Of a stretch of 35,292 nt of DNA, positions 21,079 to 29,914 are shown in pieces (within the stretch, counting starts at the first letter, position 1; each line of letters begins with the position of its first letter). Source of the stretch: a virus; the IMG/VR virus record IMGVR_UViG_3300034418_001092, positions 1-35,292 of that record. One strand, written 5' to 3'. The notes beneath the pieces are model-generated. The model saw only the letters and a program-made list of their open reading frames with translations. It was not told the origin of the DNA and did not search any database. The position numbers and the translations under genes are program-made.

Positions 21079-21456
21079 CTAACCAAGGTCAATGCTTACC
21101 CGGATGTCGCCAGCCACCTGTATCTGGCTGCGATCTATCGGCTTGAACCCAGCGCGGTCTAGCAAATCCTGTGCCGCTTGCAGCTTGACATACTCGCTCT
21201 TGCCGTTCTTAGCCAGCCCTGCCACTGTCCCGACAGCCATAGCTGCGTGCTGACTAAATGCCTCTGCTGTCACCTGCATCAGGTATTGCTGCACGTGCGG
21301 AGTCTTCATCGCTTTCCATGCGCTAGTCCTTCCGCTGTTGCCCGGCGCGTATCCGGCTTCCTCTGCAGCTTTCGTCAGGTTTCCACCGTTGGCAACATAC
21401 GCTTCCACGAGGTTACGCTGTCTTCTCGTTATTGGTCGCATTGCTGGAACGTTCAT
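21079..21456 (-). CDS. Terminase small subunit
   Basis: This 125-residue protein is the first gene of the late unit. Residues about 9-50 (ITRRQRNLVEAYVANGGNLTKAAEEAGYAPGNSG) form the helix-turn-helix typical of small terminase subunits that recognise the packaging site, followed by the usual 'K..HV..YL' helix and KLQAAQDLLDRAGFKPIDRSQ near the end. The ATG at 21456 has GGAG 6 nt upstream. Its likely target, a pac-type site, may lie in the adjacent structured non-coding region. Confidence 0.85.
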   Translation of the reverse strand: MNVPAMRPITRRQRNLVEAYVANGGNLTKAAEEAGYAPGNSGRTSAWKAMKTPHVQQYLMQVTAEAFSQHAAMAVGTVAGLAKNGKSEYVKLQAAQDLLDRAGFKPIDRSQIQVAGDIRVSIDLG

Positions 21457-21496
21457 TAGTGTCTCCTAACTGCCCCCCTCTCCCTCTCTCCCCCCG

Positions 21497-21527
21497 TTGA
21501 TAGCACGTCTCTAAACCCCTGTGTCAA
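21497..21527 (-). promoter_or_regulatory. Candidate sigma70 late promoter upstream of terS
   Basis: On the minus strand a perfect TTGACA (21527-21522) is followed after 19 nt by TATCAA (21502-21497). A transcript would start near 21490 and give a leader of about 35 nt with the terS Shine-Dalgarno. The spacer is 2 nt longer than optimal. The outer bases form an inverted repeat (CGTTGATA / TGTCAACG, one G-T mismatch), so a repressor could bind the same bases. Confidence 0.5.
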
Positions 21528-21639
21528 CGCACAAACGTGAGGCGTAGAGCCCCCTTCTGGGTCTCTTCGCGTTTATTTGGGCAGAGAGGTGGGTGCCACG
21601 CTCATTCCTAGCGCCGTGCTAATGCTACTCCGTGCCATT

Positions 21640-21779: not shown

Positions 21780-22023
21780 ATCCTCTGGACGAAAGCCGTC
21801 CGAGGGGGGCGGGGACATTCGCGTAGACGGGGTAGAACCTGCTGGCAATGACGGATAGTGACACCCTTCTCTTCTCTGGCATTTGCTGTTCCGTGCCACT
21901 CCTGCGTCGGGCACGGGCAAATGCTGGCAGCAGGGGCCCGTCACGATCCTATGCCAGCAGAACCTACCCCGTCTTCTCGATGTCCCCATCCCGCCCCCCT
22001 CGGTCGCCTTCCGACCGGAGGAT
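21780..22023. repeat. Long imperfect inverted repeat with nested hairpins
   Basis: The left arm (21780-21862) and right arm (21940-22023) are inverted copies of one element, about 63 of ~83 positions matching. Shared blocks are ATCCTC, a small hairpin, CCGAGGGGGGCGGG, GACAT, AGACGGGGTAG, CTGCTGGCA and GGAT-GTGAC. Each arm holds its own hairpin: GGACG/CGTCC in the left and CGGTCG/CGACCG in the right, differing by a swapped A-T pair. The centre has GCATTTGC 21879-21886 with GCAAATGC 21917-21924, enclosing CCGTGCC 21891-21897 with GGCACGG 21910-21916. The function is unknown. Confidence 0.85.
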
Positions 22024-22562: not shown

Positions 22563-22909
22563 CCTAACAGGGGGCGGCACCTAGCCGCCCTCGCCGCGCG
22601 AAATAGAATCCGGCTAGTCGCCGGATGCACAGGATAAACTGCCAGAACCTAGAGGGCACACGACTCCTGACCTCACACGCTACGCGGTCAGGGGCTTTGC
22701 CCCCGACACCCCCAGCAGGGCCATGCTGCCCCTTGCATCCCTTGCCCGGTGCTCACAACCAACGTGGGTTTCACAACCGATAGGACCAGAACCGCCGGCG
22801 TCCCGCCGGGCGGGAAGCCAGGAACACGTTAGGGACTTTACTACGGTGAGATTGTGGTGTGCGGCTTGTCCGCAAATGTTTTCAACAATTCAACTCATGG
22901 AGAACCAAA
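22563..22909. other. Second hairpin-rich intergenic region
   Basis: These 347 bases hold no convincing gene. Hairpins: GGGCGGC 22572-22578 / GCCGCCC 22584-22590; ATCCGGC 22608-22614 / GCCGGAT 22620-22626 with loop TAGTC; CCTGACC 22666-22672 / GGTCAGG 22686-22692; GGGGC 22691-22695 / GCCCC 22699-22703; CCGGCG 22795-22800 / CGCCGG 22804-22809. The motif AGAACCTA occurs at 22644-22651. The right end becomes AT-richer and carries the GGAGAAC start signal of the next gene. A promoter could lie there but I could not define one. Confidence 0.75.
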
Positions 22910-23137
22910 ATGAAATACAGTTACACTGACATCAACGACGTTCAAATCAACATCACCTTTTCGCTTAACGACGTTCAGCGTTTGCGTGATTGTGTAAGGG
23001 ACTTTGAACCTGAAGAACACAAATGGATGTTCAAACAATTCAAAGAAACTCTCAAAGAATCGGAGTTAAAAGCTGCCGAGGCAATGGACCTTGAAGCAAG
23101 GCATATCAAACGGGAAAACAAAGATGAAACCAATTAA
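22910..23137 (+). CDS. Small early protein of unknown function
   Basis: This 75-residue protein is read from ATG 22910 (MKYSYTDINDVQINITFSLNDVQRL) with GGAGAAC exactly 4 nt upstream; the longer frame from 22859 has no start signal. It has a beta-type N-terminus followed by an acidic helical part (FEPEEHKWMFKQFKETLKESELKAAEAM). No family is recognised. It overlaps the next gene by 14 nt. Confidence 0.75.
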   Translation: MKYSYTDINDVQINITFSLNDVQRLRDCVRDFEPEEHKWMFKQFKETLKESELKAAEAMDLEARHIKRENKDETN

Positions 23138-23279
23138 TCTTATCCACACACCAGACAACTGGGAAGAAATCATGGAGTGGATTCATCGCCACGCCCCAGA
23201 AGATCGTGCTCACCTTGTCACTGCTGCTGGCATGGCATGGAACCTAGCACTCAAAGCAATGGAGAACGAAAATGTATGA
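23124..23279 (+). CDS. Small early protein of unknown function
   Basis: This 51-residue protein is read from ATG 23124 (MKPINLIHTPDNWEEIMEWIHRH), with CGGGA upstream. It contains HAPEDRAHLVTAAGMAWNLALKAMENENV. Its start overlaps the previous gene by 14 nt and its end overlaps the DUF932 gene by 8 nt, as expected in a packed early operon. Codons 6-8 create a perfect DnaA-box sequence (TTATCCACA at 23140-23148), which may be chance. Confidence 0.7.
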   Translation: MKPINLIHTPDNWEEIMEWIHRHAPEDRAHLVTAAGMAWNLALKAMENENV

Positions 23280-25946: not shown

Positions 25947-26051
25947 GTGAACAGGGAGTATAGTCACCACAAAACACAAAAGGAGTTATCCCTTGCACCA
26001 CGAACTTATCGTAGACATCGCACTAACACCAGTAAAAAATCCTACGGCTAA
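25947..26051 (+). CDS. Possible 34-residue leader peptide
   Basis: A GTG at 25947 is preceded by GGAGAACCTA with the same 7-nt spacing as the first early gene (22080). The frame runs 34 codons (VNREYSHHKTQKELSLAPRT...) and ends at 26051, past the TTG start of the replication gene at 25993. Translating it would expose or compete with that start, so it may be a coupling device. There is no homology support, and it may simply be a decayed start signal. Confidence 0.3.
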   Translation: MNREYSHHKTQKELSLAPRTYRRHRTNTSKKSYG

Positions 26052-26658
26052 GATTGTCCTCTTAGCTATGGCGTCTTACTGCAACGGTGCAGGTGAGTGC
26101 TTCCCTTCTCAGCAAAAGCTGGCTGAAGATACGTTTCTAACTGACAGAACTGTTCGGTCAGCAATCCGATGGCTCGTTGAGCATGGCTATCTTGAAGTCA
26201 AAGCCCGACCCAACTCTTCGAACCTGTATATTCTAACCGCAATGAAGGAGACTGACATGGACCATGAGGAAAAATTTTCCTCCGAAGTAGTAAGTAATAT
26301 AACTAGGTTAGATATAGCTAAGAGAAGTATAGCTAATACTACTATTACTTCGGCGGAAAAATTTGCACACCCTCACGACACGCCGTTCTTCTTAGCCTTC
26401 TGGCAAGCCTATCCTCGGCGCGTAGCTAAGGGCGCAGCACGCACTGCCTTCGCCAAGGCTGCAAAGTTTGCAAACCCCAATGACATTATCCAAGGGGCCA
26501 TCGCTTTTGCTGCGCACTGCGAAGAGCGTGGCGTAGAGAAACAATACATCCCGCACGCATCGACGTGGCTGAATGCCGAGCGTTGGGAAGATGATCTCGA
26601 AGCAGAGAAAACAGAATTCAAACAGGAGAACAAACATGGCTGGCTCTCTGAACTATGA
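25993..26658 (+). CDS. Replication initiation/replisome-organiser-like protein (TTG start)
   Basis: This 221-residue protein starts at TTG 25993 with AAGGAG 7 nt upstream; no ATG is available near it. Residues about 10-75 (NPTAKIVLLAMASYCNGAGECFPSQQKLAEDTFLTDRTVRSAIRWLVEHGYL) form the winged HTH typical of phage replication initiators. The C-terminal part has FFLAFWQAYPRRVAKGAARTAFAKA and later YIPHASTWLNAERWEDD, a pair seen in phage replication proteins that load host helicase. It lies between regulators and recombination genes. Role by family; origin not identified. Confidence 0.75.
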   Translation: MHHELIVDIALTPVKNPTAKIVLLAMASYCNGAGECFPSQQKLAEDTFLTDRTVRSAIRWLVEHGYLEVKARPNSSNLYILTAMKETDMDHEEKFSSEVVSNITRLDIAKRSIANTTITSAEKFAHPHDTPFFLAFWQAYPRRVAKGAARTAFAKAAKFANPNDIIQGAIAFAAHCEERGVEKQYIPHASTWLNAERWEDDLEAEKTEFKQENKHGWLSEL

Positions 26659-29127: not shown

Positions 29128-29292
29128 ATGAACGAAACAGCACAGATCGCAATGAAGACACTGAACCGAAAGCTAGAGGTTCTCAAAGAAGATTCCGAGC
29201 GGCGCAACAGACTAAACCTAAAGCAATACATCGAAGAGTGCATCGCTCTTCTTCATATCATAGAAAGGAACACCGATGCGAAGAGTGGCTGA
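29128..29292 (+). CDS. Small helical protein upstream of the DnaA-like gene
   Basis: This 54-residue ORF starts MNETAQIAMKTLNRKLEVLKEDSERR and has LKQYIEECIALLHIIERNTDAKSG. It begins 14 nt after the terminator T-run with AGGTGA upstream and overlaps the DnaA-like gene by 17 nt, so both are made from terminator readthrough or a local promoter. It is highly helical, perhaps a coiled coil. The function is unknown. Confidence 0.65.
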   Translation: MNETAQIAMKTLNRKLEVLKEDSERRNRLNLKQYIEECIALLHIIERNTDAKSG

Positions 29293-29914
29293 CCACGAAC
29301 AGTTTATTCTGGAGATAGCAAACCAATACAACATCACGCCAGAAGAACTGGTGGGTAGATCGCGCAAGATAAACATTGCAGAAGCGCGGCAAGAACTAAT
29401 GCACAAGTGCCATGAACACGGCATGTCAATCGCAGAGATCAGCAGACTTCTAGGCAGAGACAACTCAACGGTGGCCTATGGCATCAAGGTCCATGAGAAC
29501 AAAGACACAAACCCAGAGGCGCTGTGCAGAACAGACACGCTGCGATACAAGACAATCAAACTCTTCAAAGAAGGATACACCACGCAGGAGATCGCCAAGA
29601 AGCTAGGCCGATCACGCGATGGAGTAACCCGCACCATTTACAACGCACGCCAACGTGGGCTCATTCCCAAGTTTGTGCCAAAGAGAAGCCCAACCACACC
29701 AGACACACCAACTCGGCAGCTAACCAACTACCTCAAGAAGTTTTATCTCAAGTCAGGGACGATGGCCGAGTTGTTGATTACCCACATGACACCAGAGGTG
29801 CGCGACTTCTGGGTAAAGAAAACAATGGACAACAAGTATGAGACAGTGGCCGAGTGTGTCGCTGACTACATGACCGATGTTTACTTCGAGGAGACAAATG
29901 ATGAGCAATCTTAA
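29276..29914 (+). CDS. DnaA domain IV-like DNA-binding protein (no AAA+ domain)
   Basis: Residues 1-73 of this 212-residue protein look like the DnaA C-terminal DNA-binding domain: ITPEELVGRSRKINIAEARQELMHK, then MSIAEISRLLGRDNSTVAYGI, with the signature D-[HN]-S-T-V as DNSTV at 62-66. Residues about 93-130 hold a second HTH (TTQEIAKKLGRSRDGVTRTIYNARQRG). The rest (145-212) is unassigned. The AAA+ ATPase of true DnaA is missing. It may mark or block origins for host DnaA, or regulate late genes. AAGGA lies upstream of the ATG. Confidence 0.8.
   Translation: MRRVADHEQFILEIANQYNITPEELVGRSRKINIAEARQELMHKCHEHGMSIAEISRLLGRDNSTVAYGIKVHENKDTNPEALCRTDTLRYKTIKLFKEGYTTQEIAKKLGRSRDGVTRTIYNARQRGLIPKFVPKRSPTTPDTPTRQLTNYLKKFYLKSGTMAELLITHMTPEVRDFWVKKTMDNKYETVAECVADYMTDVYFEETNDEQS

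Follow-up and report, generated by a model that had tools for sequence, protein, structure and literature searches.

Organization of the early/late junction

The analyzed window is an entire virus record of 35,292 bp. Its late genes, which encode TerS, TerL, the adaptor, capsid and tail proteins, and the internal virion proteins, are found on the minus strand to the left of an imperfect palindrome, and its early genes are found on the plus strand to the right (Table 1). The early gene set includes a lambda-O-like/DnaD-like replication initiator (25993-26658), a RusA-like resolvase, and a RecE-like exonuclease. Based upon TerL, the closest named phage is Pelagibacter phage EXVC031P Hodr, with 65% amino acid identity. 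The product of the first early gene (gene 1) has no match in PHROG or Pfam. The structure predicted for the gene 1 product of one relative is a helical hairpin (pLDDT 89.7), and a search of the PDB with this structure returned nothing significant.

Several other features of the region were observed. The minus strand contains a 23-nt all-purine tract, GGGGGGAGAGAGGGAGAGGGGGG, directly upstream of TerS (21473-21495) and directly after the TTGACA-16-TGCTA promoter-like pattern; about 24 to 25 nt spanning this tract are identical in many relatives despite their diverged surroundings. The roughly 700 bp between gene 1 and a DUF932 gene (22563-23271) hold no convincing gene, and a small early protein encoded at 29276-29914 combines a DnaA C-terminal-type DNA-binding domain with a second helix-turn-helix. 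At fourfold sites, the plus strand is A+C rich both in the early genes (plus strand, 0.61) and in the late genes (minus strand, 0.59), an asymmetry that is independent of gene direction in the window and in its relatives.

TABLE 1 Features between the first late gene and the first early gene of the window
Feature	Position	Strand	Basis or remarks
TerS (terminase small subunit), first late gene	21079-21456	minus	PHROG 2538, E 2e-14
Putative late promoter, TTGACA-16-TGCTAT	21500-21527	minus	By-eye reading of aligned flanks; pattern common to relatives
Whole imperfect palindrome, one long rod hairpin, 244 bp	21780-22023		Self-complementarity score, fold z, uniqueness in genome
Left arm	21780-21862		~66/83 positions identical to the right arm in reverse complement
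Small hairpin in left arm, GGACG-AAAGC-CGTCC	21787-21801 (GGACG 21787-21791, CGTCC 21797-21801)		Sequence and fold of first 40 nt
Rod center, 77 bp	21863-21939		Also self-complementary (GGCATTTGC...GCAAATGC, CCGTGCC...GGCACGG)
Right arm	21940-22023
Small hairpin in right arm, GGTCG-CCTTC-CGACC	22002-22016 (GGTCG 22002-22006, CGACC 22012-22016)		Sequence and fold of last 40 nt
Ribosome-binding site of gene 1, GGAG	22066-22069
Gene 1 (first early gene), 160 aa	22080-22562	plus

A single long rod in the window

The original prediction, made from this sequence alone, was of an inverted duplicate whose arms match at about 63 positions, placed between terS on the minus strand and the first early gene on the plus strand. 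The duplicate is real and its placement is correct: by alignment the arms match at about 66 of 83 positions, and the palindrome lies 324 bp from the terS start. The feature is bigger than the two arms, however, as self-complementarity runs on through the 77-bp center. Of 129 aligned pairs, 102 are Watson-Crick, and the full 244 nt forms a single rod when either strand is folded (fold z of -8.9 and -9.4). The self-complementarity score is 92, compared with a maximum of 32 among 1,000 dinucleotide shuffles, and no other place in the genome is a comparable outlier, the next best scoring 35.

Each arm was also proposed to keep a small hairpin of its own, with pairs that differ between the arms in a compensatory way. 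Both hairpins exist, but the apparent compensation between them consists of one swapped base pair. Among relatives of the same subtype, the right-end hairpin often recurs and the left-end hairpin does not. Rfam covariance models, at the gathering score, matched nothing in the window or in 14 relatives. A DNA similarity search of phage records and of the fetched loci with the window's element returned nothing beyond the twin record (L003/L083).

Occurrence among related phages

Relatives were gathered by TerL and TerS scans, and after deduplication the set comprised 81 regions that extend 450 bp or more upstream of TerS; a score of at least 40 was taken to define a palindrome. Palindromes of 141 to 1256 bp (median, 358 bp) are present in 71 of these regions, although one of them, in L155, is far from TerS and may be unrelated. 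Self-complementarity elsewhere in the same contigs is 12 to 38. The site is nearly always the same, with the palindrome separating TerS from the first early gene. Four or five further cases came from contigs of bacterial and archaeal genomes, including the distant L177 (1.47 kb) and L178 (1.36 kb). In the cultured Pelagibacter phage EXVC031P, TerS and the first early gene flank a palindrome of 508 bp that is 90% paired. Its presence in this isolate makes an assembly fold-back artifact very unlikely, as does the fact that artifacts would be perfect, whereas these palindromes are imperfect and have covarying differences.

The region with the TerS closest to that of the window (L172, 89% identical) nevertheless lacks a palindrome. 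Upstream of TerS, its first ~182 bp are shared with the window, and beyond them lie another region and a different first gene. The element is accordingly an exchangeable module; its absence from the closest TerS relative also indicates that it is dispensable. The stretch common to both (21456-21638) ends in an abrupt divergence, as if the intergenic module and gene 1 had been swapped. Among more distant phages, no palindrome was found in MEP301 or vB_Pun_Y3. In VA-RY-3, a short purine/pyrimidine palindrome of 127 bp lies at another place, and a self-complementarity signal in BcepC6B was rejected as GC-driven noise. In several relatives (L015, L018, L019, L065, L140, L166, and others), an operator-like palindromic sequence, TGACGTNACGTCA, is found to the left of the large palindrome, along with repeated ATACTA(C/A)A motifs just outside its left end.

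The extent of the palindrome relative to gene 1 varies. In the window and its subtype it ends before gene 1, and in many relatives it extends into or beyond that gene. The right arm of the long palindromes contains the leader and the start of gene 1 or the entire gene, and the left arm is a frame-broken, noncoding mirror copy of gene 1, covering the whole gene in many relatives. The levels of mismatch between the arms are equal at the three codon positions. An inverted pair of intact genes is ruled out, as the left arm of the largest palindromes holds no intact gene 1.

Conservation by pairing

The sequences of the palindromes differ among relatives, and their pairing is maintained. Covariation was counted in 52 pairs of close relatives (80 to 99% identical), with partners slid by 1 to 5 nt as the control. 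Changes from one Watson-Crick pair to another numbered 182, compared with 6 to 20 with slid partners; the genome pairs overlap in membership, so these counts are not independent, and covariation is seen in several separate subfamilies. The distant pair L177/L178 has 37 compensatory changes, compared with 0 to 7 in the slid controls. The element is thus conserved across the clade by pairing and not by sequence. The proposal that the inverted duplicate contains covarying pairs under selection, for which a covariation check on related genomes had been suggested, is strongly supported across the relatives, but the unit concerned is the long arm-to-arm stem and not the local hairpins.

Within the main clade, the compensatory changes are not clustered in tracts (10 neighbors versus 7.2 expected; P = 0.16) and are enriched for double transitions (47:18, versus 266:221 for one-sided changes), as would be expected if pairs change singly through tolerated intermediates. 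In L177/L178, the share of transitions is about equal among compensatory and one-sided changes (16/37 versus 24/66), and some of the compensatory changes are adjacent.

Strand bias of the mismatches

An A-C mismatch on the plus strand corresponds to a G-U wobble on the minus strand. The strand test counted isolated mismatches flanked by pairs inside stems, with all palindromes pooled. Outward from the gene 1 start codon, the ratio of minus-wobble to plus-wobble mismatches is 326:26, and inward it is 143:67; in the main clade, the excess of minus-strand wobbles among isolated mismatches reaches 12:1. The ratio climbs from 19:31 at the tip, where it is reversed, to 71:5 past nucleotide 250 of gene 1, and among all mismatches past the gene 1 stop codon it is 25:1. 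The persistence of the bias past the stop codon rules out an effect of translation or coding as its cause. Base composition is likewise ruled out as the sole cause, since a plus-strand A+C content of ~0.5 to 0.6 at fourfold sites predicts only ~1.2 to 2.6:1. The minus-strand fold is the more stable one in 57 of 62 elements, compared with 42 of 56 flanks taken as the control. The window's own element has no bias (4:4), nor do the distant L177 and L178 (14:21 and 15:25, all mismatches).

In the main clade, the bias favors a single-stranded minus-strand molecule, which would most simply be a long hairpin RNA, with single-stranded DNA as the alternative. A strand-specific mutation pattern or single-stranded DNA could also contribute part of it. 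The original prediction offered a replication origin, a pac site, and a paired regulatory RNA as possible roles, and it is the last of these that the main-clade minus-strand bias supports best.

Hairpin RNA and alternative explanations

Our preferred reading, which we hold tentatively, is that the window's palindrome is one instance of a control element shared family-wide by a group of marine podoviruses, at their early/late divergence, and that it forms a long hairpin RNA from the minus strand. In the main clade, the element would most likely act as a rod-like RNA copied from the minus (late, TerS-ward) strand, in which one arm would contain gene 1 antisense and the other the gene-1-like copy. 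Such a two-arm arrangement would hold the antisense stretch in double strand, and the RNA may function in cis, as either a leader or a switch, tuning gene 1 and the early-to-late change. The minus-strand transcript and its promoter are putative, as is its effect on gene 1. Against this, no convincing minus-strand promoter was found to the right of the palindromes, the bias is missing in L177/L178 and in the window's element and is reversed at the tip, and the nearest TerS relative has no palindrome. In addition, 1.4 kb of pairing is much to be maintained by base-by-base selection, and copying from arm to arm may contribute.

A function at the DNA level is fairly unlikely. A DNA hairpin, a cruciform, or a hairpin of the single-stranded minus strand might serve in replication initiation, priming, or genome-end processing near TerS, for example as an origin or a self-priming fold-back. 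The intergenic position at the early/late divergence, adjoining TerS, is consistent with this, as are the O-like initiator, RecE-like exonuclease, and RusA-like resolvase genes, the lack of iterons in the initiator gene, and the lack of strand bias in the L177/L178 branch; single-stranded DNA also tolerates G-T pairs. However, no AT-rich unwinding region or iteron cluster adjoins the palindrome, which is itself missing from L172, and a double-stranded cruciform would not be expected to yield the strong bias toward the minus strand seen in the main clade. Template switching is known to homogenize the arms of inverted repeats (PMC8604942, PMC7202029), and a self-renewing quasi-palindrome, in which the polymerase copies arm onto arm and extends the repeat outward, could produce both the covariation and the mirror gene 1 without any specific function. 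The left arm does resemble a copied, noncoding gene 1, and the transition shares and adjacent changes in L177/L178 fit such copying. As a full explanation it is distinctly unlikely, because the main-clade changes are scattered and transition enriched, copying does not explain the wobble bias, and palindromes of up to 1.2 kb should vanish from 35-kb genomes if they had no function, yet 71 of the 81 regions retain one. Self-renewal by template switching possibly operates together with selection.

The two remaining explanations are very improbable. Sites for pac are often in or near terS, and the distance of 324 bp to the terS start would suit a site bound by TerS; however, the palindrome sequence is not conserved whereas TerS is, L172 has no palindrome despite its 89% identical TerS, and it is the 23-nt polypurine tract immediately upstream of TerS that is conserved instead. 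Divergent promoters or terminators, paired and symmetric by chance, would fit the divergent genes on either side and the promoter-like sites in the arms of EXVC031P. They have no need for 250 to 1500 bp of covarying complementarity, and it is this length and covariation that already disfavor them; nor was a promoter-like site found near the window's element.

Relation to known systems

The put element of phage HK022 is ~70 nt long and conserved in sequence, and its RNAs are leaders that modify RNA polymerase. The putative RNA described here would similarly be structured and stand at the start of a phage transcription unit, but the element is 0.14 to 1.5 kb long and is conserved by pairing only. 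Hepatitis delta virus and the Obelisks are rod-like RNA replicons with a gene in one arm. As in this element, a coding arm and a noncoding arm pair into one long rod, whereas here the rod belongs to a tailed DNA phage and the strand favored for pairing is the antisense of the gene. Phages and plasmids also have replication origins made of intergenic hairpin DNA, but those hairpins are tens to ~100 nt long, and neither iterons nor an AT-rich region was found at the element described here. Palindromes of great length are, as a rule, unstable and costly. Quasi-palindromes at template-switch hotspots (PMC7202029, PMC8604942) resemble this element as imperfect inverted repeats whose arms can be homogenized; here, in contrast, the repeat is up to 1.5 kb long and has a fixed genomic position in many diverged phages.

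A literature search on such palindromes, on hairpins, and on the named pelagiphages, with subscription journals mostly outside its range, found no description of the element. It is a genuine clade-wide paired element, apparently undescribed in the searchable literature. It is possible, though we regard it as somewhat doubtful, that it represents a phage element of a new class, namely a rod-like hairpin RNA, 0.25 to 1.5 kb long, with a noncoding mirror copy of an early gene, conserved clade-wide purely by base pairing, that controls the early-to-late switch. Its novelty would lie in its anatomy, as read from sequence and judged against a partial literature. Ordinary sequence comparison misses the element, as no relative was found by DNA similarity with the window's copy, and it could be tested in EXVC031P, a Pelagibacter phage in culture. 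Overall, a clade of abundant marine phages retains a long palindrome at one place, as complementarity alone, despite the usual instability of such sequences. Whether it acts as RNA or as DNA, this points to a control or replication device that is undescribed in the searchable papers.
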